From the IMG/VR virus record IMGVR_UViG_3300042564_006302, positions 1-37,442 of that record: a DNA stretch of 37,442 nucleotides; one strand, 5' to 3'. This DNA is from a virus. Below the pieces are notes generated by a model. The model was not told the DNA's origin, did not search any database, and saw only the letters and a list, made by a program, of their open reading frames with translations. This document shows, in pieces, positions 971 to 28,696 of the stretch. Each line of letters starts with the position of its first letter. Position 1 is the stretch's first letter. A program made the position numbers and the translations under genes.

Positions 971-1663
971 ACCACTAAATGCACTTGTCATATTAGTAAC
1001 GTTAGTAGTACCGCTGAGGGATATATTTTTTAATGAAACTAAATTTGCAAATGAATTAGTTAAGTCAGTTAATAATCCCATATTAACTCCAGTAAAACTA
1101 ACTAAATTTTTACAAAAAGCCAAAGAAGCGGTTGCATTACCAAGAGTTAAACCTGTTAAACTTGGGCAAGATAAAACTATTTCTAATATAGGAGATGAAT
1201 CGGGAAATGTAGATCCCGTTAATGCATATTTTTGGTTAAAGTCTACACTTGTTATATTTTGACCAGCTTGAGGAGTAATGACTACAACTGCCATTTTATA
1301 ACCATCACTTGTAACGGTGGCATTTAAATCTGGGTCGGTATAAGAGTATTCATGTTGAGCTTTAACACCAGATGCAACATTTTCTGTTACACCATCACCC
1401 CAATCAACTGTATATGCTCCAGATATTGTAAAAGCGAGAAAGTTAGATTGTTGCGGAAACACTGGCATCAACAAAGCTATTTTTTGCTCTGAAGATATTA
1501 TAGTCGGCATTGTTAGCCAATCAGCTGGACGTGTCCAAGTGCTTGATGTTGAGCTAGTAGGTGATGGTTGTTTAATACGCAGTCGATCAAATCTATCCTT
1601 TTTAAAAAAAGAAGACTTACGTGAGACTAACGGTCCAACTTTATTTCCGTAACGAATACTCAT
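1..1663 (-). CDS. BspA-like leucine-rich repeat tail/adhesion protein (3' end beyond window)
   Basis: The minus-strand frame is open from an ATG at 1663 to the window edge (554 codons, no stop), so the protein is truncated here. Residues from about 70 contain a DWGDG motif, as in PKD-like domains that precede repeats in BspA-type surface proteins. From about residue 230 on there are 23-residue repeats of the form VPLFNTxAVTNMxSMFxxCxSLT, the DUF285/BspA leucine-rich repeat. The gene starts one base after the stop of the preceding structural gene, in a tail-fibre operon. By position and architecture I infer a distal tail or receptor-binding protein. The plus-strand open frames over the repeats are shadows. 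Confidence 0.85.
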   Translation of the reverse strand, partial: MSIRYGNKVGPLVSRKSSFFKKDRFDRLRIKQPSPTSSTSSTWTRPADWLTMPTIISSEQKIALLMPVFPQQSNFLAFTISGAYTVDWGDGVTENVASGVKAQHEYSYTDPDLNATVTSDGYKMAVVVITPQAGQNITSVDFNQKYALTGSTFPDSSPILEIVLSCPSLTGLTLGNATASLAFCKNLVSFTGVNMGLLTDLTNSFANLVSLKNISLSGTTNVTNMTSAFSGCSSLISVSLSDTGSVTNMTSMFNNCRSLNTVPLFNTGAVTTMSGMFSSCTSLTTVPLFNTAAVTSMNSMFSSCTSLTSVPLFNTAAVTNMSSMFSGCSSLTSVPLFNTGAVTNMNSMFASCSRLQTVPLFNTQNVTTMGGNIPPEGMFFSCRSLTSVPLFNTAAVTSMGSMFFSCTSLTSVPLFNTIAVTNMVSMFSSCTSLTTVPLFNTAAVTNMVSMFSSCTSLTTVPLFNTAAVTNMGSMFFSCTSLTSVPLFNTGAVQFTSTMFNSCTSLTTVPLFNTAAVTSMNSMFNSCTSLTTVPLFNTGAVTDMNSMFSGCSSLT

Positions 1664-3253: not shown

Positions 3254-3254
3254 A

Positions 3255-3590
3255 TCAATATGATGTTATATTTTTAATCAAATTAACTGGCCCATATAAT
3301 AATTTATCTGGACATTCTGATTCTTTATTAGCATATAAATCCCAACTACAAGGACTTAAATCAATTGCTTCTGTTTGAGTTGCATTAAGACTAATTTTTG
3401 CGATACCACTTGGTACGCTAAGAATTTCTGTTTGAAAAGTAGCTTGTAAAGCGTCATCAAAATTTCTGCGAATTTGACCAGTAAGAGTAACTCCGCTTAA
3501 ATTATAAACACTATTATTTTTTTGTATTGTTAGTGTTAAATTAAAACATGAACGTTGTTCAATAGTTATTCCAGTATATGCAGCACTCAT
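3255..3590 (-). CDS. BppU-like baseplate/tail protein
   Basis: About 111 residues. The pattern ITIEQRSCFNLTLTIQ then YNLSGVTLTGQIRRNF matches the small beta-sandwich found at the N-terminus of phage baseplate upper (BppU-type) proteins, whose usual form is IEQGxTF...DLTGYTxRxQIR. The ATG at 3590 is preferred over the TTG three bases upstream, because ATG is the normal start and GTGTAA lies 15 nt before it. First gene of the fibre operon. Likely a connector between tail tip and fibres, inferred from family resemblance. Confidence 0.7.
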   Translation of the reverse strand: MSAAYTGITIEQRSCFNLTLTIQKNNSVYNLSGVTLTGQIRRNFDDALQATFQTEILSVPSGIAKISLNATQTEAIDLSPCSWDLYANKESECPDKLLYGPVNLIKNITSY

Positions 3591-3599
3591 CAAAGACTA

Positions 3600-3605
3600 T
3601 TACAC
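3600..3605 (-). promoter_or_regulatory. GTGTAA late-promoter-like element before the fibre operon
   Basis: GTGTAA lies 15 nt before the ATG at 3590 on the minus strand and includes the stop codon of the SET gene. It is one of nine copies with the same spacing to a start codon. Confidence 0.5.
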
Positions 3606-4007
3606 CCAATCTACCTCTTCTGGAAGATATTTACACGTCAGTTCTTCACCAATTTCAATATTTTTAATGGCATAATACGTATCTGTCTCTAAATGATGAT
3701 ATAAATTAGGTTCTTCAGAATGATTTACATAATAAGATGGGCTAATTTTATTCACTGGGCAATCTATCCAAAATCCATGTTCATTGTGGTTGCACATTTG
3801 TTTAATGTAGCGACTTATATTTTGCTCAATTCCTTCAATCTCAAACCACTGAATAAATTTATTCGTATTTGTAGTGAATACAATATCTTCTTTTTCAATT
3901 TCACTCATTGCAAAAACCCCAACTCCAGCATTATTAATTTTACTTGGGGCAAGTTTTACAATAGTCTTATCAAAGAGTTCCTGTAGTATTTGGTTTCTGA
4001 GGCTCAT
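3600..4007 (-). CDS. SET-domain protein (putative protein lysine methyltransferase)
   Basis: A 135-residue protein covering a compact SET domain. The motif NNAGVGVFA near residue 26 matches the SET-N G-x-G entry, NHSEEPN near residue 95 matches the NHSxxPN AdoMet/lysine-site motif, and IEIGEELTCKY near residue 118 matches the GEELxxxY motif. Zinc-binding pre- and post-SET cysteines are absent. Members of this family transfer methyl groups from AdoMet to lysine side chains. The start overlaps the upstream gene by 38 bases. Substrate unknown; location in the fibre operon suggests a virion or host surface protein, but that is inference. Confidence 0.75.
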   Translation of the reverse strand: MSLRNQILQELFDKTIVKLAPSKINNAGVGVFAMSEIEKEDIVFTTNTNKFIQWFEIEGIEQNISRYIKQMCNHNEHGFWIDCPVNKISPSYYVNHSEEPNLYHHLETDTYYAIKNIEIGEELTCKYLPEEVDWV

Positions 4008-4623
4008 TTGTAAATTCTGTCATGTAGCTATAATCAGTGTATTGAACTCTTTTGTTTTCAACACTATATACAGTTAAATCTATTTTGTATCCTGGGTTTT
4101 TATCAATTGGAGTATCGACCCAAGCGTCATCGTGCCAAATGATCCTATTGTTTGGATAAGCATAAAAATTACCATTATCCATTTTAAACAGGTGGGCGCA
4201 TTTATGTTCGGGTGTTTCAGAGAAATTTGTGTCAAGTATTGCTTTATTTTCCCAACCCCAATCTAAAGTAAACATATATTCACCCCATTCCTTTTGCCCC
4301 TTTGGATTGATGAGTTTAGCCTTTAATCCTTTTAATCTTGTTCTTACTTGGACATCAACATATGGACTAAAACAATCCCAATACATCGCATGTTCTAGTG
4401 GCACTGGATCGCACTCTTTCCAACAAAAAGCGGTAATTGGGCGACGAGTCCAGTTTACTCCATTTGTTAAAAATGCTTCAAAAAGTGGAACTCTTTTTTC
4501 AATTGAAGCTACAGAATGAACATCGCATGAAGTATATTCCCCATGTCCTTTTTCATGATTAAAAAGATACTCATTTCTTATTAAACAAGTAATAGTAGGA
4601 ATATTGTGATTAAGATAAGACAC
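3970..4623 (-). CDS. Conserved phage-type hypothetical protein
   Basis: A 217-residue soluble protein starting with GTG at 4623. It is rich in Trp, Cys and His (for example GEYTSCDVHSVAS, NGVNWTRRPITAFCW, HKCAHLFKMDNG, IIWHDDAW). I do not recognise the family. No signal peptide or membrane segment is visible. It is the first gene of a minus-strand unit continuing into the SET gene and is preceded by GTGTAA 14 nt before the start. Co-transcription with the SET gene and fibres suggests a late, virion-related role. An enzyme or a 2OG oxygenase-like fold is possible, but no clear metal triad can be assigned. Confidence 0.7.
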   Translation of the reverse strand: MSYLNHNIPTITCLIRNEYLFNHEKGHGEYTSCDVHSVASIEKRVPLFEAFLTNGVNWTRRPITAFCWKECDPVPLEHAMYWDCFSPYVDVQVRTRLKGLKAKLINPKGQKEWGEYMFTLDWGWENKAILDTNFSETPEHKCAHLFKMDNGNFYAYPNNRIIWHDDAWVDTPIDKNPGYKIDLTVYSVENKRVQYTDYSYMTEFTNEPQKPNTTGTL

Positions 4624-4631
4624 TATTAATT

Positions 4632-4637
4632 TTACAC
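4632..4637 (-). promoter_or_regulatory. GTGTAA late-promoter-like element
   Basis: GTGTAA on the minus strand, 14 nt before the GTG start at 4623; the continuation TAAAAT resembles a -10 box. No -35 element is visible. It lies in the 51-base divergent gap to the plus-strand cargo operon. Confidence 0.5.
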
Positions 4638-4674
4638 AAAAACAATAGAAATCTACTTTTTAAAATTTAGTATC

Positions 4675-5154
4675 ATGCATATGTTTACGCTATATAAGCC
4701 AAATTCTAAAAACACTGGATGTGCTTTTTCATTTAAAATTGGGGTTCATGGGAAAGATAAAGAACCCTGCATTTATGTTAATGCAATTCAACAACACTCT
4801 TGGAATGAAAAAACTAGAAATGGTTCATTTTCTGAAAATGCCAAGAATCCAGATAAGACTATTACTTTTAAATTAAATGAAATTGAAGCTGCGGGATTAA
4901 TTTATGCAGTTTCCGAATATGTCGAGTATAAGGCTTTTCATTCTTACGAAGAGAATAAAACAACAATTAACTTTAAACCATATTCTAAGCAGGATGGCAC
5001 AAAGGCATTTTCTCTTAGCGTAGTAAAGAATTCAGCTCTTAAATTTGGCATTGGTTTTGAAATGTCTGAAGCTTATCTACTCAAAGCCTTTTGTGAAAAG
5101 GTTCTTGATGAATTGTTTGAATATCGTATTAATAGCCAAAAACAAAATAACTAA
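4675..5154 (+). CDS. Small conserved protein, possible single-strand nucleic acid binder
   Basis: A 159-residue protein. Segments such as CAFSFKIGVHGKDKEPCIYV, AIQQHSWNEKTRNGSF and KTTINFKPYSKQDG alternate short beta strands with charged loops, followed by an amphipathic C-terminal helix. This strand-then-helix order is compatible with a PC4/whirly-type ssDNA-binding fold, but I cannot confirm it. An in-frame ATG at 4681 is an alternative start. First gene of the plus-strand cargo operon, two bases before the glycosyltransferase. Function left open. Confidence 0.7.
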   Translation: MHMFTLYKPNSKNTGCAFSFKIGVHGKDKEPCIYVNAIQQHSWNEKTRNGSFSENAKNPDKTITFKLNEIEAAGLIYAVSEYVEYKAFHSYEENKTTINFKPYSKQDGTKAFSLSVVKNSALKFGIGFEMSEAYLLKAFCEKVLDELFEYRINSQKQNN

Positions 5155-10485: not shown

Positions 10486-10694
10486 ATAATAAAATCGTTA
10501 AAAAAATAAGAAAAATAATCCCTCCTACTAATGAAATTAATAGAAGAAATTATCAAAGGGCTAAAGAAAAATATAAATCTTTATCCAAAGAAGCTAGACC
10601 TATTTTTATTGAAGAATTATCTAAATTATTTAATTCACATGGCAGTTCTTTGAATCCTAAAGAATCCAGTAGGTTCGACATTAATAACATTTAA
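10482..10694 (+). CDS. Small basic hypothetical protein at the end of the cargo operon
   Basis: A 70-residue Lys/Arg-rich protein starting in an ATGA overlap with the GNAT gene. RRNYQRAKEKYKSLSKEARP followed by IFIEELSKLF is probably helical. Its last 20 codons overlap the 3' end of the convergent minus-strand tail gene by 60 bases. The overlap could mean the stop is real but divergent, or that the ORF is partly fortuitous; coupling favours a real gene. No function can be assigned. Confidence 0.55.
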   Translation: MNNKIVKKIRKIIPPTNEINRRNYQRAKEKYKSLSKEARPIFIEELSKLFNSHGSSLNPKESSRFDINNI

Positions 10695-11774
10695 ATATAT
10701 ATAAGAAAATGTATTCTCTATAGAGTATTCAATACCTATATCATTATTAATTGCATATTCACTAATGAATACTCCAGATCTATCTTTATTACTTGAATCG
10801 CTAATAGTTACTTTTAAATCTGATGATGTAACTGATCCATAAGCATCTATTATTTGAGTGGTGTAAGATACTGTTTTATAATTATATTTTTCGAAAATAT
10901 CAATTGTATATTTATCTTTTGTTGGTATTTCTCCACTAATTGATTCTGTTTTAGCTATTTCAAAATTAGTTGGATCAGTAGCGCTAATCACTGTATTAAC
11001 ACCAGTATCAATAGTTTGTGTAATATAGACATCAGTTATGTAAAATGGTTCTCCAGATCCCATTTTTGAATAAGGCACTATTGCAAAATTATATGGAGTA
11101 TTGTATTCAAAATTAGATTTTTTATCAAACTTTATATTATTTAAATCTATAAACTCTATTAAACTATTAGTTTGAAATAAATTATCAAAAATTAATTGTG
11201 GCAAAGTTGATGTTTCAGATTTTACAGCGTAAAATTCCATTTTATCTAATTTTGTATACTTAGGATCATTCTCTAAAGAAATATTAAAATTAACATATTC
11301 TTCAATTTTACTTATTGACTCTCCAGTTCCAGAAGGGTCTGTTGGATAATTTTTATATCCAACTCCATCAATTACTTTAACTCCAGAGATTTTTGGAACA
11401 TTTCCATACGTATAATATTCAAGAGTAAATATTTCAGGATTAAAGTTATTGCTTACATTAGCTCTAATTCCAAAATCTTTTTGATACAAACCAAATATAG
11501 ATATATTTTCATTTTCATTAAATGAAAATGCGGTACTCGCAGATGTAATATATTCTGGTAAAATTGTATTTCCATTTATATCTAAAATATCAAAAGTAAC
11601 AGCTTTTATAAATGGATTACTTCTAAATGATTGTGTATTTTCTATTAAATTATTTTTGTTATCAAACAAAGAAAAATAAAAAGATACATCTTTATTTAGA
11701 TGAACACCACTTCCAACTGCTATTGCATTTAGATCTCCAGTATTAGAATTATAATTTGATTCAAATTCAAACAT
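10635..11774 (-). CDS. Tail protein encoded after the J homologue
   Basis: A 379-residue protein, mostly beta, rich in Asn, Ser, Thr and aromatic residues. It has fibronectin-like spacing (PKISGVKVIDGVGYKNYP, YNTPYNFAIVPYSKMGSGEP, ITDVYITQTIDTG). It starts 14 bases after the J-like gene and has no promoter of its own, so it is probably translated from the tail-tip transcript. Likely a tail-tip or receptor-binding accessory subunit. No enzymatic motif seen. The 3' end overlaps the convergent cargo operon by 60 bases. Confidence 0.75.
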   Translation of the reverse strand: MFEFESNYNSNTGDLNAIAVGSGVHLNKDVSFYFSLFDNKNNLIENTQSFRSNPFIKAVTFDILDINGNTILPEYITSASTAFSFNENENISIFGLYQKDFGIRANVSNNFNPEIFTLEYYTYGNVPKISGVKVIDGVGYKNYPTDPSGTGESISKIEEYVNFNISLENDPKYTKLDKMEFYAVKSETSTLPQLIFDNLFQTNSLIEFIDLNNIKFDKKSNFEYNTPYNFAIVPYSKMGSGEPFYITDVYITQTIDTGVNTVISATDPTNFEIAKTESISGEIPTKDKYTIDIFEKYNYKTVSYTTQIIDAYGSVTSSDLKVTISDSSNKDRSGVFISEYAINNDIGIEYSIENTFSYIYLNVINVEPTGFFRIQRTAM

Positions 11775-11788: not shown

Positions 11789-14700
11789 TTAAATTATCAC
11801 AACATTTTCAACTACAGGTTTTGATAAATCACCTGGGTTTGCATTTTCATATCCTATAAAGTATTTAGCTATTGAAAATTGCGAGTTATATTTTAATGGA
11901 TTTCGAGAAATAACTTGCACTTTGAATGTCCATAAACCTTGATCATTTAATCCTGAGTAATATACTCTATATGGCCCTGAACCTTGATTTGAAGAATCAA
12001 TAACTTGTTCATTATAATATCCTATATTTGGATTTTCTAATATAGTTGAATAAACTAAATTTTGTTCTCCATTTGGTGGAAACCACTCTCCATTTAAAGT
12101 AAAGTTTAAATTATTTTTTGTTATATTTAATGCTGTTTTAGTTGGTTGTTCGTATCCATCAATTACTTTAAATAACAAAGAGTTGTATTGTTCTTGAGCA
12201 TTTTCAATATATACATCATTTTCTATTGTCAACCATTTTCCGCTATCATATTTTGATCCAACGAGACTATACTCATTTGGGCTATTTTCTCTAATAGATA
12301 TTACTTTATAAATTTGATCTTCTGTATTATTTACTTGGAATCTATATGTTGAACCCTGTTCAACTATATTTAATAAATTTAAATTAAAATTATTATTATC
12401 TAAATACACAATAGATCCATTTCTTATTTCTGTATCAGAATATAATGCTGAATAACCAGATACTGCATACGTAGTTATTTGTCTATTATTTTGAGTTCTT
12501 ATTTCATCATCATGAATACCTCCATAATTTGGAGAACCTTGTAATACTCCAGTCCAATTAGTTCCACTATAAACAAAAGTTGGAGATGCTTGTTGCAAAG
12601 TTCCTCTTTTAGTAAGACTGGTATTTAAAAATGCATTAACACTAGAAATATTTTGGATACCTCCTGTAGTTATTTCAGAAATGTATTGTCTATTAATAGT
12701 TGAAAATGGTCCACTTGTAGACATAATCCAACCAGTAAGACTCAAATCATAATACCAACAGTTATTTTTATCACCTGTGTGTCGGTAGACAGCGTGTTGA
12801 TATCCACTGATTTTACTCGTATCTAATGAATCATATTGTGTAGAGTAATGTGAGAATTGATAAACTTTATTAGATGTATGACCTAAATTTCCATTAGAAA
12901 TTTGAAATTTATCAATTCTTTGTCTTATAGCATCACTTGATTTACTTAACTCTGCAGCTGTTTTATATCCAGTCGGGGTATAAATAGTAATTTTAGCATT
13001 TGATCCAAAAGCCTGTGTGTCAACTATTCCATCTAATGTGATTGTTTTATTAGTCACATCAACATCAAGTATTCTGCCGTAATTAGCAGTTCTACTTTTC
13101 ATTTCATCTTCAACAATAATTAAATCCCCAGGTCTACATAATAATGCTTCTGGTCCACTTGTAAACTCAATGCCTTGATTTTCTCTAGTTGTTTGCCATA
13201 TTGCGTGTTGACCTATTCTTCTTGCCATCGACTTTGATGTTACACCAAATGTATTAATAGTAGTTTTAGCATAGCCTCTATACCTAATGTCATCTTCATC
13301 TTTAACTACTTCTATTTTTGTTTTAAAATTATCCAATTTATCTACATAAGCAACTTCTACAATATTAAAAGATTCATCTTTTTTATTGTTTGTGTAATTA
13401 AAAAATCCATCTTTAACATTAGAATTTGTAAATAATGCAATTGGTTCACGAGGCCTATCATCACTAAAATGTAATTCAGAATTAGAAAAGAAAATATTAC
13501 CTCTAAATAAATTTGCTATCATGTTAATAGCGTCAAATATTTTTGTTGATTCATTAAACATTGCGTTACATGAAAATCTTGGTTCAAGACCTCCACGAAG
13601 ATCTTTTACGCCAATAAAAAGACCATCATCATCTACAGCATCACAATATCTTCCTATTTTATATATTTCCCAAATATTAATAGCAGAATCTTCTAAATAT
13701 TGCCCCAATCCATATCTATCATTTGTTAATATATCATACAAAATCCAAGCTGGGTTATCTGTCCAACCAAGTTTAAATTTTCCATTCCAATCTCCCTTGT
13801 AAACTAATTTATCATTAAGTTTTGCATTATTGTATTTTTCTATTGAACTATAATACCTTTTATCTTTTTTAAATAGTTGATCACTCAGTGGATAATAATT
13901 TTCTGGTATTGCTATTTTTTTCAACCTACAATCATAACTTCTATTTGGTATTGAAGTAAAATTTCTAGCATCTATTTTAGTTCCAACAACAGCAGAAAAT
14001 GGGTATGAAAAATTAAATGGAACAACTTCTGTTACTTTATTTACATAAACCTCTCTTTTTAAAGCAATTGAATTTGTTTCTGCAGATACTTTATATATTT
14101 TTACATATCTTTTGCCTCCAGAGGATGTTTCATCATTACTTATGGGTGGTAATGTTATTTTTTTAGATGGATTATTATCATTTAAATTTGTAGGACTAGC
14201 GACAAATGGACCTTTACTTATATAAGCACCCTTTTCTTCATAAAATTTATTTTCATTATTACCTAAATCAATTATAACGGGAGACTCAACTATGCCAATT
14301 ATTTTATATTCTCTACTCTCATTAGCTTGAAACGTTTTATTTATTACCTTGCCAGTTTCAATCATTACATGGCAGATTGCTGGTATTTTTGTGCCAGGTT
14401 GATCATTTGTAGCTTTATCATCTGTTGCTGATGCTCCTCCATCAGTAATTGATAGTCTCAAAGTATTTGTAATAATATCTGTTAATTGTTTAATTTCAAT
14501 TGTAACAATAATTTCACTAACGTCTGGATTTTCAATGTAGTATGTATAAGGAATAGAGTCTTCATTAAACATATCTAAAGCATTATGAAAATTAGTTTGT
14601 TGAGGAGTTACTACACCACCAATTCTTTTTTGATACCTTCTAAGATCTAACCCGCCTTCTGATCTAGATTTTAACAACAAGTCTGGAATACCGCCTTCTT

Positions 14701-16954
14701 CATCGGCAGGTGGCAGTTGTGGTGCTACAGCCCTATAATTTCTATAATGATCCGCAACAGGTGTATCTAATAAAAGTCTATTTGGAGCAAATTTTCTCAC
14801 TTGTCCAACACTTCTAAATGGGCCTGTTAATTTATAGTTTGCGTCAATATCAATATGTGTATTATTAAAAAATGCAAGAGGTTTTTGATTTTCTTCTCCA
14901 TTTCTAAATTCACATAATACGTTATTAAAGTTATATTTATTTATTGATGGTTGAAAAAATGCCCTTGAGAATTTCAAACTAAAACTAGATCTTAAAATAT
15001 CAGTTAGTCCTGTACTTAATGTTGTTTTATGTATATTAATAATATTTTGTACATCATATTTTGTTTGAGCTGCCCATGCTCCGAGAGCAGTTATTAAATT
15101 AGAGAGTAAATCTTTTCTAGATCCAGAAATATCTATTGCAGAATTTAATTCATCGCCAGGAACATTATCTACATTCCACGATATTTGCGGTATTGTTGCG
15201 TTAGATCCTGCAAAAGATATTGCAATAAATCCATACACTCTACCAGTAAATGAATTTGCACTGTCTACTTCTGGTATTACACATGTAAATATATAATCAT
15301 TTTCATATGCAGCCATTTTATCAATATAAAAAGATGCCTCTGAATCTTCATCATTTACTGTTTTATCTGCAGTTGAAGCTCCACTCTTCAGTATGGATAA
15401 AGGCGCATTTCTTACGCCGATTGATAGTATTAATAATGGTTGTGTAATTAAATCATAATCTCTAAATGTTTTATTTAAATTTGACGGCACAGGCAAACCT
15501 GATTCACTTAATGATTCTGTTATTTTTTTTTGCTCTATTAGCTTAATTTTACCTAGTATTTTATTTATATAGTTTTGTTCAAATCGAGGGACTGAAGGAA
15601 GTAAATTATTTAAATAAATTTTCCAAGCTTGAATATTATAACTTACACCTTCAGCAAAAGCAGTATCACGTCTTAAATGAAGTTGTAATAGATCTGAATT
15701 AACAGCTCTCCACCATGGTGAACCTGAAGTAGTCATTCTTTGTACTTGGCTCTTTGATGCCATTTCATCTAATGTTCCATATCTAAAATCAATTTCTTGT
15801 GTACCATTATAAGGTTGCCAATCAAATTTAATTGATTTTTGAACTTCTTGTTTTTGTTCAATTTGCGCTTCAATTTTAGCAATTTTATTAAAGTTGCCAA
15901 GCTTTTCTAATTGCTTAGTTAATGCTTTTATTTGTTCATTATAGTTTTTTATTCTTTTTTCAGAAGCGTCTATTTCTTTATCTTTATTTTTTCTATTTTG
16001 CTTTTGTTTTTTAGGTATAGCAGCAAGTTCTGCATTTAACCTATTTAAAGTCTGTTGTTCAGCATCTCGTTGTATAATTACATTATTTCTCTGAGCTTCT
16101 TTCCCATCAATATCTAATGCTGCAATTTCTTTATCTAATTTAGCAAGTTGAGCATTTAATTGTTTTAATCTACCCTTAGAATTATTTATTTCTTTTTCTT
16201 TAGCATCGCGGGCTTTTTTATTAGCTTTGTTATTAGGTAGTGCAGCGAGTTGCGCATTTAACGTATTTAAAACCCCTTGTTCAGCATCTCTTTGTGCAAC
16301 TACTCCACCTCTTGAGGCACTTTTATCACTATATTTTTGTTGATTGATTACTTCTAAATCATCTAATTTATTAACTTGTGCTTGTAGTTTATTTATTTCT
16401 TTTCCAATTTTATTAAATTTCTCATGTAAACCATCAGCTCTAATATTTGAATAATTTTCAACAATTGATGCAATTGTTCCTATATTTTCAGATTGATGTG
16501 TACCAGGAATTTGTTGTGTTTTATATTTTTTTCTCCATAGATCCAATGCATCTTGCGATATAATTTCTCTTTTATTTGTCGGACTAAATACATTTCCTAA
16601 AAAATTAGTTAATGGAGTAAAAAAAGCATTTGTATTAGCAACATCACTAAATGGATTTGATGCTACTGAAGATGATCCTACATTATCAACTGAACTTATT
16701 GGTGTATTATCAAAATAAATACCTTGTAGTATATTTACATCTGTAAGTTTTTCACCCCCCTCATTAACTAAACCTTCAATTGGTCCATCGCAAATTAAAT
16801 CAACTATTTCAGCCGAAGAGTATGATGGATAAGTTTTATAATTACCATATATAGGTGGTTCTAATCTTGGTGGATCTGGTGGTGGACCAGGATTAGGGGA
16901 TTTTGGTTTTTTACCAGCACCCATTAATGATATTTTTTTAATAAAATGTTTCAT
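11789..16954 (-). CDS. J: Tip attachment protein J homologue (central tail fibre/host specificity)
   Basis: A 1721-residue protein. The N-terminus has a proline-rich stretch (KPKSPNPGPPPDPPRLEPP), then SSAEIVDLICDGPIEGLV, the hallmark of lambda J-type proteins (xxDLIxEGPIxGL). Residues about 175-375 are a long charged coiled coil with an internal duplication. WTDNPAWILYDILTNDRYG and the region through RPGDLIIVEDE match the conserved J core with its phage-tail beta domains. The C-terminal part is beta-rich and probably contacts the receptor. Lambda J is about 1130 residues, so this version is enlarged. It overlaps the I homologue by one base (TAATG). Confidence 0.92.
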   Translation of the reverse strand: MKHFIKKISLMGAGKKPKSPNPGPPPDPPRLEPPIYGNYKTYPSYSSAEIVDLICDGPIEGLVNEGGEKLTDVNILQGIYFDNTPISSVDNVGSSSVASNPFSDVANTNAFFTPLTNFLGNVFSPTNKREIISQDALDLWRKKYKTQQIPGTHQSENIGTIASIVENYSNIRADGLHEKFNKIGKEINKLQAQVNKLDDLEVINQQKYSDKSASRGGVVAQRDAEQGVLNTLNAQLAALPNNKANKKARDAKEKEINNSKGRLKQLNAQLAKLDKEIAALDIDGKEAQRNNVIIQRDAEQQTLNRLNAELAAIPKKQKQNRKNKDKEIDASEKRIKNYNEQIKALTKQLEKLGNFNKIAKIEAQIEQKQEVQKSIKFDWQPYNGTQEIDFRYGTLDEMASKSQVQRMTTSGSPWWRAVNSDLLQLHLRRDTAFAEGVSYNIQAWKIYLNNLLPSVPRFEQNYINKILGKIKLIEQKKITESLSESGLPVPSNLNKTFRDYDLITQPLLILSIGVRNAPLSILKSGASTADKTVNDEDSEASFYIDKMAAYENDYIFTCVIPEVDSANSFTGRVYGFIAISFAGSNATIPQISWNVDNVPGDELNSAIDISGSRKDLLSNLITALGAWAAQTKYDVQNIINIHKTTLSTGLTDILRSSFSLKFSRAFFQPSINKYNFNNVLCEFRNGEENQKPLAFFNNTHIDIDANYKLTGPFRSVGQVRKFAPNRLLLDTPVADHYRNYRAVAPQLPPADEEGGIPDLLLKSRSEGGLDLRRYQKRIGGVVTPQQTNFHNALDMFNEDSIPYTYYIENPDVSEIIVTIEIKQLTDIITNTLRLSITDGGASATDDKATNDQPGTKIPAICHVMIETGKVINKTFQANESREYKIIGIVESPVIIDLGNNENKFYEEKGAYISKGPFVASPTNLNDNNPSKKITLPPISNDETSSGGKRYVKIYKVSAETNSIALKREVYVNKVTEVVPFNFSYPFSAVVGTKIDARNFTSIPNRSYDCRLKKIAIPENYYPLSDQLFKKDKRYYSSIEKYNNAKLNDKLVYKGDWNGKFKLGWTDNPAWILYDILTNDRYGLGQYLEDSAINIWEIYKIGRYCDAVDDDGLFIGVKDLRGGLEPRFSCNAMFNESTKIFDAINMIANLFRGNIFFSNSELHFSDDRPREPIALFTNSNVKDGFFNYTNNKKDESFNIVEVAYVDKLDNFKTKIEVVKDEDDIRYRGYAKTTINTFGVTSKSMARRIGQHAIWQTTRENQGIEFTSGPEALLCRPGDLIIVEDEMKSRTANYGRILDVDVTNKTITLDGIVDTQAFGSNAKITIYTPTGYKTAAELSKSSDAIRQRIDKFQISNGNLGHTSNKVYQFSHYSTQYDSLDTSKISGYQHAVYRHTGDKNNCWYYDLSLTGWIMSTSGPFSTINRQYISEITTGGIQNISSVNAFLNTSLTKRGTLQQASPTFVYSGTNWTGVLQGSPNYGGIHDDEIRTQNNRQITTYAVSGYSALYSDTEIRNGSIVYLDNNNFNLNLLNIVEQGSTYRFQVNNTEDQIYKVISIRENSPNEYSLVGSKYDSGKWLTIENDVYIENAQEQYNSLLFKVIDGYEQPTKTALNITKNNLNFTLNGEWFPPNGEQNLVYSTILENPNIGYYNEQVIDSSNQGSGPYRVYYSGLNDQGLWTFKVQVISRNPLKYNSQFSIAKYFIGYENANPGDLSKPVVENVVII
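15870..16310 (-). repeat. Tandem duplication inside the J coiled coil
   Basis: Two blocks about 230 bases apart encode similar heptad segments: QRDAEQGVLNTLNAQLAALP and QRDAEQQTLNRLNAELAAIP, each followed by a Lys/Asn-rich linker and further heptads. Boundaries are approximate. It looks like a duplication that lengthened the coil. Confidence 0.6.
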
Positions 16955-17712
16955 TATTCGTTGTCTCTTTGATTTAATCTACTTTCAATTGTTGACCAGT
17001 CTGTAGTTGATGATGCTTCTACATTTGGATTTTCTGCTGATAAAATGGGTTTTGTCCAATCTTCTGGAGAACCACTTTGTATATCAGCTCTTGCATAATT
17101 AGACGCTTTTACAGTAGTAGATCTAATATTCATTGGATAGGATTTTACAGTTGATTGAATTATGAGCGAACCAACTCTTAATCTTCCATAACCAACAGGT
17201 ACGACTGATCCTTGTGTTGCCGTATTAGTTGTAGTATTAAAAGAAAATGATTGATCTATTGAAGATGCTGTTCCAACTACTTGCTCTGGAGTTTTAACAC
17301 CACTACCGCCTCCACGTTTACCAAGCATTGCTTGCACACCAGCACTTAAAAGCCCAATTCCGACACTAATCCATATAGCAGCAACAGCTGGAGCTAATCC
17401 TCCAAATATACCAACGCCTAAAGCTATAGCGCCCACAGCAGCAACAACGACTCCCTGACCAATGATTGCTGGAACGATATCGATTTGTTTTGGTGGTCTC
17501 TCCAATTCTTCAGGAGTTAGATTTTTTATATTTTTATTATTTACAATAAGCGAGAAATTTAAACCCTCATGAGATAATTCATATAATCTTTTACGAAACC
17601 TCTCTCTACTACAAGTAATTGCATCAATAAATTCCTTTGGTTTCCTTAGTTTTATTTCAAACTTTTCTCCAAATTCAAATTTTAAAATACCATGTAAATT
17701 AATTGTTGTCAT
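16954..17712 (-). CDS. I: Tail assembly protein I homologue
   Basis: A 252-residue protein. Residues about 1-80 form a ubiquitin-like beta-grasp domain (INLHGILKFEFGEKFEIKLR). Residues about 85-135 are a Gly/Ala/Val-rich hydrophobic stretch (GVVVAAVGAIALGVGIFGG), and SVVPVGYGRLRVGSLIIQS is the conserved C-terminal motif of lambda gpI-type proteins. Known members help assemble the tail tip and are not abundant in the virion. It lies between the K and J homologues as in lambda, overlapping K by 14 bases. Confidence 0.85.
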   Translation of the reverse strand: MTTINLHGILKFEFGEKFEIKLRKPKEFIDAITCSRERFRKRLYELSHEGLNFSLIVNNKNIKNLTPEELERPPKQIDIVPAIIGQGVVVAAVGAIALGVGIFGGLAPAVAAIWISVGIGLLSAGVQAMLGKRGGGSGVKTPEQVVGTASSIDQSFSFNTTTNTATQGSVVPVGYGRLRVGSLIIQSTVKSYPMNIRSTTVKASNYARADIQSGSPEDWTKPILSAENPNVEASSTTDWSTIESRLNQRDNE

Positions 17713-18115
17713 ATTTTTTCTTAAAGTTTGTAGTTCTTTTTATATTATAATCTTTATTTTGAGGTTCATAAAGATTAAATTTTCTTGTATTTAGTGAAAA
17801 AACTAAAAATGGTACACAGCTTAATTCTGACATTTTTATATCAAATTCTGAAAAACTTTCATCTCCAACAATATGACTATGAAAAACGGCTATTATATCA
17901 TAATCATTTTTAAATTTTAAATAATTATTTGGGTCTATTAAAAAATAATCACTTACATTTTTTGCAAGATTTTTTTCAATATGGGCAACATAAGTTTTTT
18001 CATTAGTATCAAATCCTATAAAACCACAAATTTCAGCATTTAAATTAAAATCCGCATGTTGAATTATAAATTCTTTTATTTTACTTAATGATTTATTTTT
18101 AATTTTAGTTTCCAT
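17699..18115 (-). CDS. JAMM/MPN metallopeptidase-like tail protein (K homologue, N-terminal part only)
   Basis: About 138 residues from the ATG at 18115, which overlaps the L-like stop by 11 bases; an upstream ATG at 18148 is possible. AEICGFIGF supplies the glutamate, and FHSHIVGDESFSEFD is the JAMM zinc motif HxH-(x)n-S-x-x-D. Lambda gpK has this domain followed by an NlpC/P60 peptidase. Here the second domain is absent. The protein probably cleaves a tail component or peptidoglycan cross-link at the tip. Position between the L and I homologues supports the assignment. Confidence 0.8.
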   Translation of the reverse strand: METKIKNKSLSKIKEFIIQHADFNLNAEICGFIGFDTNEKTYVAHIEKNLAKNVSDYFLIDPNNYLKFKNDYDIIAVFHSHIVGDESFSEFDIKMSELSCVPFLVFSLNTRKFNLYEPQNKDYNIKRTTNFKKKYDNN

Positions 18116-21100
18116 ATCCGTATCCGTATGTTCCTGGAAATCCACCAAATGGTAAATAATAATTTGGTGTTTTTGAATAAGTTAAATTTCTATTTATGCT
18201 GGTTTGATAAGTTTGTACTAAATTAGTTGTAGATATACCAACTCCTGTTATGATAATATCTTTTTCCACACCTCCATTTGACCACTTACCAGTTTCACTT
18301 CTCCATTTATAAGATCCATTTCTTTCACTTAAAACTCCAGTATGATTATCTTGCCACCACCCAATAAGACCACTAGTAATATTTAATCCTGGTCTTTCTA
18401 AAGGTAGTTCAGAAAATTTTCTTGGTAGTTTTGCAATTGAAGGGCTAGAAAACATATCATTGGGCAATGTTCTTTTTAACCATTGTTTTTCTGTCTCTGC
18501 GAGTTCTCTATCCCAAATAGCTAGTCCATGATAATTTATTGGCGAGGTATAACTATTTCCTCTAGTGTCATTTGCATTAACTGTTGTATATACCTTGATT
18601 GTCATGGGTCTTTCAAGAATATAAGATCTTATAACATTTGGATTCCACGAATTTGGATCATTTGGCAAATCATTCCATGCAAAACCTACTCCATCACTAG
18701 TTTGATATACATGAGCATAATGTTCTCCTGGTAGTGTAGAACCTGGAAGAGTTGCATTATTTGGTTCAACTGCTGGCGCTACCCTATTCCAATTATGATA
18801 TAAACCACTAACTGCACCACCTATTGTGCCATTTCCTGTATAAAATAATGTTCCATCTACCCATCTCCAGTCTCCTTCTTTTACTGAATCTGTTGCACCT
18901 ATCCAACAACGAGTGGTCGCCATTAGTGATGAATGTCGATTAGTTACTGTAGACCAGTCTGTTGAATTTTTTGGACAAAATAATCTACCAGCTCTTGCTT
19001 CAGCATCTGCCTTAGCATTTGTCCATATCCAGTTTGTTGGACTAGTTATGATTTCTGATGTTGGAATTGTATTATTAACATTACGGCTTCTATAAATTAC
19101 TCTGACAAAATAAACAAAATCAGTAGATGTGTTAGTAAAAGAGTAAATGGTTCCGCCCAATACAATATCTTCATATGGATATATGAACTCAATATAATCT
19201 CCAACTTTCCAAGAATTAAAATTTACATCTGGATGTTCTGCTTTTTTGAAATTTAAGCTAAATGCTTGAAATATATCACCAATATTATATGCGTTAAAAA
19301 CAACATTTTCTACAAATTTTTTAAATTCACTAATTAACGTTAATCCTTTTGGAGCATTAAAACCATTTTTATTAACTGTTGTAGCTGTAGGGTTTACTAT
19401 TTGATTATACCACCAATCAGTTATTCCTAATCTAAATTTTGTCGAATAATCAGGATCTCCAGGGAATTTATCATGATTTTTTTGATGTAAAAAGTGCGAA
19501 AATGTAAATTTTTCATTTGTTGCTAATGTATATTCACTAGAATTTTCTCCATCAGTATTAATTAATGATATTTTAATTTTACCGCCAGCGCTTTGGGTAT
19601 TTTTACCCTCCATTAAAAGCAGATTATAATTATTTGTTCCTTTTTTGATTGAATTTGGTGTGCTTATCCATTTAAGATCACTTAATTGAATATTAGTTTG
19701 ATTTTCAAACATCCAAGGATATTCAATAATATAACCATCACCCCAACTATCCACTCCATCATCCCATTTTTTATAACTAGGAAATCCTGCAACACTAAAT
19801 CTATCATTACCATACATGTACATATAGTCTTGACCAGGTTGTGCAACAACTCTTACTCCAGCGGCATTAACGCCATCATTTGGTTCTTGAAATGTCGGGC
19901 TTATATTGCTAGGTATTGATTCCCAGTTTTGATAACCCTGTTTAACATATTCGCCATTAATCCATCTAAATGTACCTTCTTTAGCTACATCATTGCCACC
20001 AATTAATTTATAACCATTAAAAATAGGAACAATATTATTTTTTTCTAAAGTGTTTAAAACAGCTAATCTACCACCAAGTGATTGCGCTTCAGTAGATGCT
20101 GCAGCCCAAGATATAAGCGCTGGCTTTTCTATTACACCAAATCTATTAGTAGTTGTTGTTCTTGGGCTTGAGTTTGCAGTTACTTTTATTTTTACTTTTA
20201 TTAATGAATTATCTGCAGTATCAGCAGTAACAAATGGACGATGCCTTTTTTCAAGAAGAGATGTTGTTATTGGTTTTTGAATTGTATTTTCATTTATAAA
20301 TCCAAGACCTTCCATAACAGAAGTTCTGGTATTATCTGAATTGGTAAATGATTTAGAATACATTGGACTGTTAGAAACATTAATTTCAGTTACAATCCCT
20401 TCTAAACTATGAGTTTTATAATATCCTTTTATAAAATCACCAGTTTTCCAAGCGCCGATTTCTTGATTAAAAAACAATAATTCTTTTATATCTCCAATTT
20501 TTATTTCAGATAAATCAATTGAATTGCGACTTCCCTCGTAAACCTCATAACTATCATTATAAAAACCATTTGTATATGCACTTCTATTCAACGATCCAAT
20601 TTCTTCAAATCTTGTAGTTGTTGTATTTGGGTTTTGAGTTACAGTGCTAAATGCTTGTACAAATTTATCATAATGTGTATAATATAATAATCCACCACCC
20701 CAATAAGCTCCTGTTTTTAAAGTTGTTAAAACTGTATGAACAGAATTTGTAATATTACTTGGAGCAGTAATCCATGTTGCTATAGTAAAATCTTTATCTA
20801 TATATGTAGATAAAGATTGATCTTGTTGTAAAAATTTAAGACCATTAATTGATGGGCTTGTATTTGATGATGCTAAACCTGAAGTATTTAAATATTTTTC
20901 ATCTATTTGATAAACATCACTGACAGTTTTATTAAAAGTTTCTTTATTAAATCTTTTTTTGCACGCTGTTAAATTTTTTGCACATTCATCTTTTTGCCAA
21001 TATATAGAACTATATTTTGACCATGGAGAGTTGCTTTGATCTGAAGAATGATTTTTTATACATACATGATAAGTTTCTTGATATTTACTGGTTTTTTGTC

Positions 21101-21842
21101 CATAAATTGGCGTTAAGTTTATTCTTTTATCAATGGTCCAAACCATATCACCACTTTTATAACTTTCTCCATTAAACCATTGTAAAAAATTATATTGATC
21201 CTGTTGAATAAAATTAATAATACTAGTGTTATTAATATTTAATTTATTATTATCTTTATCAAATAATTCAGCACCTTCATATCTACAACCAAAACCCCTA
21301 TAATTAAAGCTACAATAATTTGATAAAATTAATCTATTATTTAATGTAGCACCATCAATATCTAAAGCTGTTGTTAATTCAAATTCTACAAATAATCTAT
21401 TTTCTGCTGTTTTTTGCGCTACAATATAAGTATCATTACTTATTTCAGCCGACATGTCAGATTCTCCCCATGGATTTCCTCCATCGAAATTATCATCATC
21501 CAAAAATTTAACAAAAGTTCTTTTTCTGACTAATCTAGCGTATTGTAAATCTTTATTATTAGCTAAAATATCAGTAACAATAAAATCTTTATTTGATATT
21601 CTAATTTTAGGTCTTACAAGTCTATTATTTGTAGATAACTCAAAACCTTCTGTTTCAACTGGCATTGGTAAATATTCAGTACCCTGCCATATTATTGGTT
21701 GTTGAAAATTAGAACCTGGATGAAAAGCTAAAAACAAACCTTCTTTATCAACAATATTGAAATAAAGCAGATAAAAATCTAATATAGCAGAAGGTTGAAA
21801 CTCAACCAAACTTCTAGCTACTTTATCTTGACCTTTCCCCAT
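18105..21842 (-). CDS. Minor tail protein L homologue with two C-type-lectin-like domains
   Basis: A 1245-residue protein. Residues about 1-200 match lambda gpL (FHPGSNFQQPIIWQGTEYLP, ETEGFELS, RPKIRISN, RTFVKFLDD). Cysteines near 180, 187, 285 and 292 (NYCSFNYRGFGC, DECAKNLTACKKRF) fit the four-cysteine iron-sulfur site of gpL. Extra domains follow: a LamG-like segment near 330-450, a C-type-lectin-like domain at about 567-707 (ISWAAASTEAQSLGGRLAVL, GGNDVAKEGTFRWINGEY, QEPNDG), a second at about 937-1077 (WIGATDSVKEGDWRWVDGTL, VEPNNA) and a LamG-like C-terminus. gpL is usually about 230 residues. Likely host surface-binding additions. Confidence 0.88.
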   Translation of the reverse strand: MGKGQDKVARSLVEFQPSAILDFYLLYFNIVDKEGLFLAFHPGSNFQQPIIWQGTEYLPMPVETEGFELSTNNRLVRPKIRISNKDFIVTDILANNKDLQYARLVRKRTFVKFLDDDNFDGGNPWGESDMSAEISNDTYIVAQKTAENRLFVEFELTTALDIDGATLNNRLILSNYCSFNYRGFGCRYEGAELFDKDNNKLNINNTSIINFIQQDQYNFLQWFNGESYKSGDMVWTIDKRINLTPIYGQKTSKYQETYHVCIKNHSSDQSNSPWSKYSSIYWQKDECAKNLTACKKRFNKETFNKTVSDVYQIDEKYLNTSGLASSNTSPSINGLKFLQQDQSLSTYIDKDFTIATWITAPSNITNSVHTVLTTLKTGAYWGGGLLYYTHYDKFVQAFSTVTQNPNTTTTRFEEIGSLNRSAYTNGFYNDSYEVYEGSRNSIDLSEIKIGDIKELLFFNQEIGAWKTGDFIKGYYKTHSLEGIVTEINVSNSPMYSKSFTNSDNTRTSVMEGLGFINENTIQKPITTSLLEKRHRPFVTADTADNSLIKVKIKVTANSSPRTTTTNRFGVIEKPALISWAAASTEAQSLGGRLAVLNTLEKNNIVPIFNGYKLIGGNDVAKEGTFRWINGEYVKQGYQNWESIPSNISPTFQEPNDGVNAAGVRVVAQPGQDYMYMYGNDRFSVAGFPSYKKWDDGVDSWGDGYIIEYPWMFENQTNIQLSDLKWISTPNSIKKGTNNYNLLLMEGKNTQSAGGKIKISLINTDGENSSEYTLATNEKFTFSHFLHQKNHDKFPGDPDYSTKFRLGITDWWYNQIVNPTATTVNKNGFNAPKGLTLISEFKKFVENVVFNAYNIGDIFQAFSLNFKKAEHPDVNFNSWKVGDYIEFIYPYEDIVLGGTIYSFTNTSTDFVYFVRVIYRSRNVNNTIPTSEIITSPTNWIWTNAKADAEARAGRLFCPKNSTDWSTVTNRHSSLMATTRCWIGATDSVKEGDWRWVDGTLFYTGNGTIGGAVSGLYHNWNRVAPAVEPNNATLPGSTLPGEHYAHVYQTSDGVGFAWNDLPNDPNSWNPNVIRSYILERPMTIKVYTTVNANDTRGNSYTSPINYHGLAIWDRELAETEKQWLKRTLPNDMFSSPSIAKLPRKFSELPLERPGLNITSGLIGWWQDNHTGVLSERNGSYKWRSETGKWSNGGVEKDIIITGVGISTTNLVQTYQTSINRNLTYSKTPNYYLPFGGFPGTYGYGYGN

Positions 21843-24615: not shown

Positions 24616-25184
24616 ATATTGTAACATCGCAATGTAAAACAACACTTTTGCTTAATAATGCTTGGCAACCAATCAATGCTATTACAGCAAGAGCAGCATT
24701 CTCACATTTGTTGAAGGGTCATATTACTGCGCTTGATAAAAACAATAATGTTTTTCATTCTTTAGAGAGATGGAATAAAGATGCTGAATTTTATGAAGAT
24801 CAACCTGTATTGAGAAGTGCTAAAGGTGTTTGGCCTATTCCAACTGTTATTATCGTAACGAGTAAATTTTTTCGTCGCCCAAGGAAAAAGAAATTGACTA
24901 CCTTGGAGATGGCAAAGATTTATAACTTTACTTGCCAGTATTGTTTAAATAAATTTAAAATCGCTGATTTAACAATTGATCACATCAACCCCAAAAGTAA
25001 AGGGGGGACTGATGATCATGAAAATAGAACATTGGCATGTAAACCTTGCAATACAAGAAAGGCTAGTAAGTTTCCATTTTTTAATGTTAAAAATGAACCA
25101 GTTGCTGCGCCAGAAATTCCTGCTTTAATGTTAAACACAAGTAAGGTTAGAGAAGAGTGGGAATATTTTTTGGGTTCTGTGTAA
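24612..25184 (+). CDS. HNH endonuclease-family protein
   Basis: 190 residues from the ATG at 24612, which overlaps the ThyX stop by ATGA; an upstream ATG at 24594 is less likely. The C-terminal half has CQYC, then DHINPKSKGGTDDHENRTLA, then CKPC, the zinc-stabilised HNH/McrA fold. The N-terminal half (TLLLNNAWQPINAITARAAF, VWPIPTVIIV) matches the domain often found before HNH in stand-alone phage HNH proteins. Likely a DNA nuclease, for example in host DNA cutting, packaging or homing. Confidence 0.85.
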   Translation: MNIVTSQCKTTLLLNNAWQPINAITARAAFSHLLKGHITALDKNNNVFHSLERWNKDAEFYEDQPVLRSAKGVWPIPTVIIVTSKFFRRPRKKKLTTLEMAKIYNFTCQYCLNKFKIADLTIDHINPKSKGGTDDHENRTLACKPCNTRKASKFPFFNVKNEPVAAPEIPALMLNTSKVREEWEYFLGSV

Positions 25185-25191
25185 ATCTATG

Positions 25192-25219
25192 TTGACAAAA
25201 ACACAAATTTGATTAAAAT
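25192..25219 (+). promoter_or_regulatory. Sigma70-like promoter for the tRNA array
   Basis: TTGACA at 25192-25197, 16-base spacer, TAAAAT at 25214-25219. Transcription should start near 25226, about 75 bases before the first tRNA. Confidence 0.7.
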
Positions 25220-25225
25220 AAAAAT

Positions 25226-25300
25226 TGAGGGTAGTAAACACCAGAAGTTACTAAGGTCCGAAAGGGAGATTGGGTTGAGATAAACCTACTAATTTTTAAT
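25226..25300 (+). other. Structured leader of the tRNA array
   Basis: No ORF. TAGTAA and TTACTA form a 6-bp hairpin at about 25232-25254, and GGTT/AACC a second hairpin near 25275-25288. No canonical tRNA could be folded. It may be a processed leader or an unusual RNA. Confidence 0.35.
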
Positions 25301-25378
25301 CGCGGGTCAACCAGTAGTAGTGCTGGATCTGTCTCATAAGCAGAAGTAGTTTCGGTGCAATTCCGAAACCCGCAACCA
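25301..25378 (+). tRNA. tRNA-fMet (CAT), initiator type
   Basis: The acceptor strands CGCGGGT and ACCCGCA pair except for a C1:A72 mismatch, the hallmark of bacterial initiator tRNA, and the 3' end is ACCA. The anticodon loop is CTCATAA with a 5-bp stem (TCTGT/GCAGA). The three consecutive G:C pairs normal for initiators are missing, the D-loop lacks GG and the T-loop is TGCAATT, so it is divergent. The C1:A72 mismatch favours initiator over elongator. Confidence 0.75.
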
Positions 25379-25386
25379 ATTTTTAT

Positions 25387-25472
25387 GGGTAGATACCCAA
25401 GTGGCTAAAGGGGGCAGACTGTAAATCTGCTGATGTATGTCTACGTTGGTTCGAATCCAACTCTGCCCACCA
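25387..25472 (+). tRNA. tRNA-Tyr (GTA)
   Basis: GGGTAGA pairs with TCTGCCC, anticodon arm GCAGA-CTGTAAA-TCTGC, long variable arm, T-loop TTCGAAT, encoded ACCA. Canonical class II tRNA. Confidence 0.92.
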
Positions 25473-27364: not shown

Positions 27365-28696
27365 TTATCTACTTATTTCTTCCCAGTCAATAGAGCCATG
27401 AACAAGCTCACCATTAGTACTAGCTGTTACCACAAGTGTAAGTTCATACGGTGTGCTAGTAAATGAGTTTCTTTCAAGTTGAAATTTAAATAAGGCTTCT
27501 TTAAGAATATCTATAGTAGTTGATGCCTGTGTATTAGACGTTAAGTAGCCTGATGCCAGTGTTCTTCCACCTGTAATGCCTGTAGCATCTAATTTATATT
27601 CTACAGAAGAATTAGCGCCAGCACTAATCCAAGTACCGCTACCACCTGTTGTTGTACCACTGGCTATCACTGACCATTCATATATTCCTGTAGCTACACC
27701 CATAACAGATATAGCTGTAAGTATAGCAATTGCATCGAGTCTGCCTGATTTGAGTCTTATAGTAGCTACAGGATATAAAACACCTGCTGTAGTAAGTCCT
27801 TTTGGTGCTGTAATTGTAGTACCGATAGCTTGTTGCAATCCTCTCAATTCATATCCGCCTTCTGAAATCACAGAAGAACAAATTTGTTTTAATATACTAT
27901 TGCCAGAAGTTGCGGCAGTATTTGATATTTCATATCTCAGCGGCAAAGAAGCTGTAGTAATATAAGTAGAAGTAATAATGTTAGCGTGATGAAAAGTATG
28001 ACAAAGAATAAATTGTCCGTTAATAACAAATCCCATTCTTACTGAACCAACTCCCAACCATTCAAAATCCATCCATAAAATTTGAGCCTTAGCGATATCT
28101 AAAGTAAAACCAGAAGCGCCAGTTCCGTCTAATTTGTCTCCATTCCACTCTGCTTGAGATACTCTTGTTTCTTTAATTGGTGTACCATCAACCAAACTAC
28201 GTTCGACAAAACTCAAAACAGAACCATCGAGTTCTAAATACATTCCATTATCAGCACCATAGTAACCTACTCTTTGTCTTAAACCAGTTTTTGCTGGTGA
28301 CATTACAAAAGTATTTAAATTTAATAATGATTTTCCTGGTTGATAAGCAAAAACTTTTGTTGTTTCTCTAGTAACGAATGAACCAGAAGCGTTTGTTACA
28401 GTCAAATCAACCAATCCTTGATTTTGATTAAAAGAACCACTACCACTAACACCACTAGCAGTAGACCAAAGACCATTGTCAGCATACCTATGACTTGAAT
28501 CAAATAAAGTTAATGGAGAAGAAATTCTCATGCGACCAAACGCATCAAAAGCAGTAGAACTAGCAGAATTGGCAAAACTTAAATCGCTTTGCTCTAAGGG
28601 TCTGTATACATCGTTTGCGCGATCATATATACAAGGAATTTGTCCTGCTGTATGCGACAATTGACCAAGGTTTTGGAAAGTATACAGATCTGCCAT
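27365..28696 (-). CDS. Virion structural protein (FDAFGRMR/TLFDS type)
   Basis: A 443-residue protein. The N-terminal part carries STAFDAFGRMRISSPLTLFD, a block I recognise from widespread uncharacterised phage structural proteins. The rest is Gly/Ser/Thr-rich, beta-type sequence (GYYGADNGMYLELDGSVLSF, QILWMDFEWLGVGSVRMGF), probably a tail or capsid-surface component. It is isolated on the minus strand between tRNA groups and has its own GTGTAA element, so it is probably a late gene. The plus-strand frames inside it are shadows. Confidence 0.75.
   Translation of the reverse strand: MADLYTFQNLGQLSHTAGQIPCIYDRANDVYRPLEQSDLSFANSASSTAFDAFGRMRISSPLTLFDSSHRYADNGLWSTASGVSGSGSFNQNQGLVDLTVTNASGSFVTRETTKVFAYQPGKSLLNLNTFVMSPAKTGLRQRVGYYGADNGMYLELDGSVLSFVERSLVDGTPIKETRVSQAEWNGDKLDGTGASGFTLDIAKAQILWMDFEWLGVGSVRMGFVINGQFILCHTFHHANIITSTYITTASLPLRYEISNTAATSGNSILKQICSSVISEGGYELRGLQQAIGTTITAPKGLTTAGVLYPVATIRLKSGRLDAIAILTAISVMGVATGIYEWSVIASGTTTGGSGTWISAGANSSVEYKLDATGITGGRTLASGYLTSNTQASTTIDILKEALFKFQLERNSFTSTPYELTLVVTASTNGELVHGSIDWEEISR

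Follow-up and report, generated by a model that had tools for sequence, protein, structure and literature searches.

How does a hub protein of the lambda-type tail tip come to carry lectin domains, and what might they do there? The question is raised by an L-like tail-tip hub gene (P0001; 18105..21842, minus strand) in the window analyzed here, one 37,442-nt stretch of IMG/VR virus record IMGVR_UViG_3300042564_006302, from a bacterial virus of environmental origin; the product of this gene is 1245 aa long compared to the 232 aa of lambda gpL. An earlier note on this DNA described a lambda L-type tail protein with two C-type-lectin-like domains (CTLDs) and LamG-like segments, in which about 1000 residues follow the iron-sulfur domain, and proposed that host recognition had moved to the L position. 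The analysis suggests that the protein is probably a lambda-L-type hub turned into an "adhesive hub" by sugar-binding inserts, with a Ca2+-dependent role in adsorption; the inserts are two, one within the iron-sulfur domain and one ahead of the C-terminal tail.

A lambda L-type hub protein

The L gene is a single uninterrupted open reading frame (ORF) at exactly the positions of the protein described in the earlier note, and the plus strand across it contains many stops; all of its parts listed below lie on the minus strand. Its assignment to the L type is borne out by a match of Phage_tail_L (PF05100) to residues 38-202 (E 1.8e-40) and by a match to phrog_18, minor tail protein, among PHROGs (E 2e-46). 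A phmmer search of solved structures returns lambda gpL (8iyk and others, E 1.1e-21), and the closest solved relatives are the lambda tail tip protein L and an F2-pyocin hub protein. Two full-length homologues encoded by other metagenome contigs (L001 and L002; 72% and 69% identity) have an architecture identical to that of the window L, which argues that the latter is not an assembly chimera.

The features shared with lambda gpL are the HDI domain, the Cx8C/Cx6C cysteines, an FGGF-type tail and downstream K, I and J genes. The HDI (attachment) domain, delimited by the Pfam and lambda gpL matches and named after a previous study (PMC10721106), spans residues 1-176 (21315..21842). It is followed by Cys177 and Cys186 (Cx8C; 21285..21314), equivalent to lambda Cys173/Cys182, and by Cys287 and Cys294 (Cx6C; 20961..20984), equivalent to lambda Cys205/Cys212; kept in all related L proteins aligned, these four cysteines are, by their lambda spacing, a putative [4Fe-4S] ligand set.

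A large insertion ahead of the C-terminal tail

The window L terminates in LPFGGFPGTYGYGYGN, with PFGGFPG at residues 1231-1237, and comparison with other L proteins identifies its C-terminal tail, YYLPFGGFPGTYGYGYGN (18108..18161), as the normal end of an L protein. In ordinary L proteins (lambda, S-H1, S-CBS4, L338C, pJN2-26), the FGGF-type motif lies a few residues past the fourth cysteine, reading NFGGFLS in lambda, LPFGGFPG in both S-H1 and L338C and PFGGFPG in S-CBS4; the intervening distance is 10-19 residues in all 45 proteins parsed from a survey of 80 S-H1-like L proteins, a selection biased toward uninserted ones. Whereas lambda has a short linker here, ~930 extra residues separate Cys294 from PFGGFPG in the window L. 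Because the FGGF-type end of ordinary L proteins lies beyond this block, the extension is an insertion (insert 2) and an appendage after the iron-sulfur domain is rejected; of the earlier description, the existence of a large extra stretch holds, and its placement does not.

Natural examples of empty and partly filled sites support this view of the block. A distant relative (L024) has insert 1, discussed below, and lacks the block, its fourth cysteine being joined to YGGFPG by only a short linker. A phage with similar flanking genes (L020; nuclease gene 91% identical) encodes an L of 670 aa that has the block and no CTLD, and can be aligned with the window L over three collinear stretches (residues 1-359/1-375, 739-782/456-497 and 1088-1244/511-668). 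The gaps between these, of 379 aa versus 80 (residues 360-738) and 305 aa versus 13 (783-1087), each hold one CTLD of the window L, so that the CTLDs are two separate inserts of ~290-300 residues inside the inserted block. This leaves a scaffold in three parts: residues ~300-445 (20508..20945), collinear with L020 up to residue 359; residues ~711-865 (19248..19712), of which 739-782 are collinear with L020 456-497; and residues ~1081-1227 (18162..18602), collinear with L020 511-668.

In other relatives (L005, L007, L009, L010 and L016-L018), the block is preceded by an extra region and lacks CTLDs; in some of them this region is similar to a galactose-binding domain (DUF7402), with a best E of 6.1e-6 that falls narrowly short of the Pfam cut-off, and the block itself is homologous to the end of that of the window L (hhalign probability 97.9, E 4.5e-13). 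The relatives appear to show stages, from no insert to the block and on to either a block with a galactose-binding-like domain or, in the window, L001 and L002, a block with two CTLD cassettes. No homologues of insert 2 were found in cultured phages within the collections searched.

Two C-type lectin cassettes

Lectin_C matches two stretches of the window L above the Pfam cut-off (E 4.8e-8). CTLD1 (residues 567-710; 19713..20144) is preceded by a WKxGDxI beta module, with which it forms cassette 1 (residues ~446-710; 19713..20507), and CTLD2 (residues ~936-1080; 18603..19037) by a WKVGDYI module, the two making up cassette 2 (residues ~866-1080; 18603..19247); both cassettes are absent from L020. 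An alignment of 32 CTLDs draws on the window phage, L001 and L002, on further phage contigs and on genomes of bacteria, for the most part Planctomycetota and Verrucomicrobiota; the usual core is recognizable in it together with EPN-type and WND-type motifs. These correspond to EPN 653-655, Gln671 and WDD 693-695 in CTLD1, and to EPN 1026-1028, Glu1040 and WND 1056-1058 in CTLD2, where L001 and L002 have Gln and WDD. EPN and WND/WDD are kept in both domains across the three phages, though CTLD2 is only ~60% identical. CTLD1 contains no cysteines and CTLD2 only Cys956 and Cys979; the disulfides of animal CTLDs are therefore not kept in either domain, a difference that is not decisive since most bacterial CTLDs aligned also lack them.

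An AlphaFold2 (AF2) model of cassette 1, calculated using the CTLD alignment, has blocks of predicted local distance difference test (pLDDT) values of 84-95 over most of CTLD1 and one loop at 57-72. Foldseek ranks mincle as its top match (E 1.5e-7), and VIA-align superposes the CTLD1 model on collectin-11 with a Z of 16.4 and a root-mean-square deviation of 1.9 over 115 residues, mannose-binding protein scoring similarly (Z 15-16); in PDB and viral fold searches with the cassette 1 model, matches are confined to the CTLD part. Because the bacterial sequences in the alignment help the prediction, the model is not independent of sequence similarity. By its predicted fold CTLD1 is a C-type lectin domain, and CTLD2 is one judging from sequence alone. 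The two lectin-like domains of the earlier note are thus recovered, and structure prediction, the check proposed there, places a lectin fold at residues 567-707 with high confidence.

In a tree of these domains, CTLD1 groups with the CTLDs of other phage tail proteins (support 97/94) and CTLD2 lies elsewhere, with weak deep forks. The WKxGDxI modules of both cassettes are alike over 27 columns (hhalign P 1.6e-5); nevertheless, a recent duplication giving rise to CTLD1 and CTLD2 is not supported, as the two separate in the tree, the weakness of its deep forks notwithstanding. Among the nearest relatives of CTLD1 is a CTLD encoded by L034 (3677-6118; also found in L033), which sits in an N-terminal extension of a post-J tail protein, ahead of the homologue of the post-J protein of the window. 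A 68-kb phage contig (L035) encodes a canonical CTLD inside a tail protein whose N-terminal part matches phrog_5939 (2948-4966), and the same record has another CTLD gene at 25138-25446.

With CTLD1 of the window as query, no homologue was found in cultured phages; with the CTLD of a related phage, only the Flavobacterium immuto phages were matched among them, through a vB_FspM_immuto protein annotated as "lectin C-type domain-containing protein". The bacterial and vB_FspM_immuto CTLDs belong to the same sequence family as those of the window but are carried by proteins other than L-type hubs. Planctomycetota and Verrucomicrobiota, from which most of the bacterial relatives come, are associated with polysaccharide-rich habitats. 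This origin would suit a reading in which the CTLDs and the block bind surrounding glycans, such as extracellular matrix or algal and biofilm polysaccharide, and keep the phage near its hosts; the CTLDs are, however, located at the tail tip and not on the capsid, and the modules of hub and Dit proteins that provide precedents bind host cells (PMC7291167), so that we regard this reading as quite improbable.

A CBM5/12-like insert between the cysteine pairs

Unlike lambda gpL, which has no domain between its second and third cysteines, the window L has an insert of ~85 residues (insert 1; residues ~199-284, 20991..21248) that lies between Cys186 and Cys287 and so divides the iron-sulfur domain in two. 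Its W..G..Y..GD pattern is conserved in 12 relatives, and PF02839, the carbohydrate-binding module (CBM) family CBM5/12, matches insert 1 in 5 of 12 relatives (best E 0.0012), with the window's own copy left unmatched. An oligosaccharide-binding domain occupies the position of insert 1 in the hubs of RcGTA and roseophage R4C (PMC7296036, PMC10276861). The L proteins of cultured cyanophages S-2L (L073 2824-4131) and S-CBS4 (L074 2863-4260) have ~180 and ~260 residues, respectively, between the second and third cysteines, and these stretches have no evident similarity to insert 1. Other phages, too, make use of the first insertion site.

The scaffold block and the LamG label

LamG-like segments, also part of the earlier description, are not confirmed. 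A Pfam search of the window L with Laminin_G_3 gave no match, a profile of the scaffold block found no LamG chain in the PDB, and hhalign of the block against 24 bacterial LamG domains was not significant; the FTIATWI strand of the block has a weak local similarity to LamG (hhalign P 0.012). From its sequence, the block may be called LamG-like by motif only, and LamG identity is not established.

That the scaffold block is conserved even in L020, which has no CTLDs, could point to inserts with a mainly structural role, binding tail proteins or stabilizing the tip, with a CTLD fold that does not bind sugar. Animal CTLDs without sugar binding are indeed numerous. EPN and WND/WDD are nonetheless retained in both CTLDs despite their large divergence, and the other modules that occupy these sites are likewise of sugar-binding type; we consider a purely structural role very unlikely.

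Genes around L

The order L-K-I-J of lambda is found in the window, with all four genes on the minus strand. The K-like protein (17699..18148) consists of a JAB domain only (Prok-JAB E 4.8e-7; phrog_30 E 1.3e-19), without the NlpC/P60 part, and its gene begins inside the 3' end of L, with 44 nt in common, an overlap also present in L001, L002 and L020. It is followed by an I-like tail assembly protein (16954..17712, minus strand; phrog_32 E 1.9e-32), a J-like central fibre/hub protein of 1721 aa (11789..16954, minus strand; phrog_31 E 4.9e-104, PF13550 E 3.4e-21) and the post-J protein (10635..11774, minus strand), whose homologue in the related phage L034 has its own CTLD. The N-terminal region of the J-like protein is long and includes coiled-coil-like repeats at about 16008-16303 (a 74-nt direct repeat, 80% identical, with copies 222 nt apart), not expected in lambda J. 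On its strand, L comes first (from 21842), next to a divergent GNAT-like gene (weak match), and, unlike in lambda, no M- or H-like gene adjoins it.

Elsewhere in the window, a fibre-type protein is encoded at 2048-3253, and a SET-domain protein at 3600-4007 (E 6.1e-11), whose gene shares its strand with the fibre-type genes. The ORF at 2-1663 (minus strand; 554 aa) is open-ended, contains a 72-nt repeat in 13 copies and matches DUF285 (E 7.1e-61); its product is a BspA-like repeat protein, possibly a fibre or adhesin, and the frame runs off the end of the contig. The gene at 27365-28696 (minus strand) encodes a virion structural protein (phrog_1645) 64-66% identical to counterparts in T4-like cyanophages, S-RIM12 and S-RIM50 among them; given the lambda-like tail tip of the phage, it looks like a horizontally shared gene.

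Divergence between relatives and the site of host recognition

Among the three close relatives, the HDI domain is 93-94% identical, with a nonsynonymous divergence (dN) of ~0.04, and the inserts reach dN values of ~0.14-0.53 at a synonymous divergence comparable to that of the HDI domain. Divergence within L is highest in the modules preceding CTLD2 and CTLD1, in CTLD2 itself and in insert 1. CTLD1, 76-78% identical between phages, is among the most conserved parts of the inserts, varies least of all the lectin and module inserts and is not especially variable. A look at variation between close relatives had been proposed in the earlier note, and its outcome for CTLD1 is the opposite of that expected from a hypervariable receptor-binding domain. 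The pattern fits exposed domains under relaxed constraint or changing selection, and it does not mark out the CTLDs as a hypervariable receptor-binding surface.

Diversification of the kind driven by diversity-generating retroelements (DGRs) is rejected: no RVT_1 reverse transcriptase is present in the window or in the records of eight relatives, which may be fragments, and no direct repeat of at least 40 nt joins the CTLD region to another place in the window, as a template/variable repeat pair would. Since neither reverse transcriptase nor template repeat was found, the comparison with Mtd made in the earlier note holds for the C-type lectin fold only; the rest of the analogy is loose, given CTLDs of canonical EPN/WND type with bacterial and phage relatives.

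These data bear on whether the L-borne CTLDs are the primary receptor binders that set host range, recognition having shifted from J to L. The inserts are large, modular, exchangeable and at the outer face of the tip, and the nearby nuclease and ThyX genes diverge less than L, I and J do; these points speak for such a shift. J-like, post-J and fibre-type genes are, however, all present, CTLD1 retains its 76-78% identity where J is only ~60% identical between the same phages, and no diversifying element was found. We consider this shift unlikely; because the J, post-J and fibre-type genes remain, the move of host recognition to L put forward in the earlier note is not supported, and replacement of J by the CTLDs as host-range determinant is possible but unsupported.

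Discussion

The preferred explanation, an adhesive hub, can be put as follows. In the hub protein of a siphophage-like tail tip, the outer face of the iron-sulfur domain would have taken up modules at two sites that tolerate insertion. The sequence retains the HDI domain, the four cysteines and the FGGFPG tail at the C terminus, with a CBM5/12-like module parting the cysteine pairs, and a large, presumably beta-type block ahead of the tail holds two cassettes, each a WKxGDxI module with a CTLD, in two places. In lambda, gpL forms a trimer, and its iron-sulfur domain faces outward from the tip (PMC10721106); inserts in the corresponding domain of the window L should thus be exposed. If the L of the window is trimeric as in lambda, six CTLDs and three CBM-like modules would surround the tip. 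As suggested by EPN and WND/WDD, the CTLDs may bind mannose-, GlcNAc- or fucose-type sugars of lipopolysaccharide, capsule or other surface glycans in a calcium-dependent manner. L could then mediate reversible adsorption and orient the tip, with later steps left to J and other tail proteins.

By analogy, the inserts are most likely carbohydrate-binding decorations of a trimeric hub that work like "evolved Dits", and the simplest interpretation of the L-borne CTLDs is that they help the phage adhere to the surface of its host. The sugar-binding modules of hub and Dit proteins are believed, and partly shown, to bind host cells (PMC7291167, PMC7296036, PMC10276861); for CBMs in loops of Dit domains, host binding has been shown (PMC7291167).

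Several points weigh against this explanation. In CTLD1, Gln671 takes the place of the usual Glu Ca2+ ligand and D-D that of the N-D of WND, and the domain's low variability, described above, is not what a host-recognition surface would lead one to expect. CTLDs can also bind protein, lipid or ice. Finally, AF2 prediction of residues 296-1245 (three sequences) was unusable (pLDDT 27), leaving the scaffold block without a proven fold.

Comparison with known systems separates what is shared from what is particular to this protein. The hubs of RcGTA (Rcc01696) and R4C have a sugar-binding-type insert between the cysteine pairs, as does the window L (PMC7296036, PMC10276861), but insert 1 looks CBM5/12-like and the 930-residue CTLD insert is without counterpart there, the clip domain of those hubs having ~30 residues. 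The "evolved Dit" of Gram-positive siphophages likewise has carbohydrate-binding modules nested in loops of a peripheral tail-tip domain (PMC7291167); its carrier is Dit and its modules are of other families, whereas here the carrier is the L hub, and the resemblance lies in the way of working. Mtd of BPP-1 and the tentaclins share with the window L a C-type lectin fold in a phage adhesion protein (PMC10743442), but the CTLDs of the window are of canonical EPN/WND type and hub-borne, and no reverse transcriptase or template repeat accompanies them. DGR-type C-lec proteins are already known in phages (PMC10743442). The literature searched contains no description of a CTLD at the L position or of inserts separating the fourth cysteine from the FGGF tail. 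The principle of nesting carbohydrate-binding modules in tail-tip proteins is already known, then, and it is the L position and the nested arrangement that look new.

A bolder generalization, that the stretch between the fourth cysteine and FGGFPG is a general docking site for swapped or nested glycan-binding modules in uncultured phages, with the lectins here setting host range instead of J or side fibres, is one to which we give little credence.

Canonical EPN/WND-type C-type lectins are known mainly from animals and some bacteria. The window L places such domains in a phage tail tip, in a form suited to expression and to assays on glycan arrays. It also reveals a second site at which the lambda-type hub tolerates insertion, for which empty, block-only and block-plus-lectin examples exist in nature. 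Hypervariability of the C-terminal region of gpL has been noted before (PMC13243795), and the L inserts described here represent one concrete route to it.

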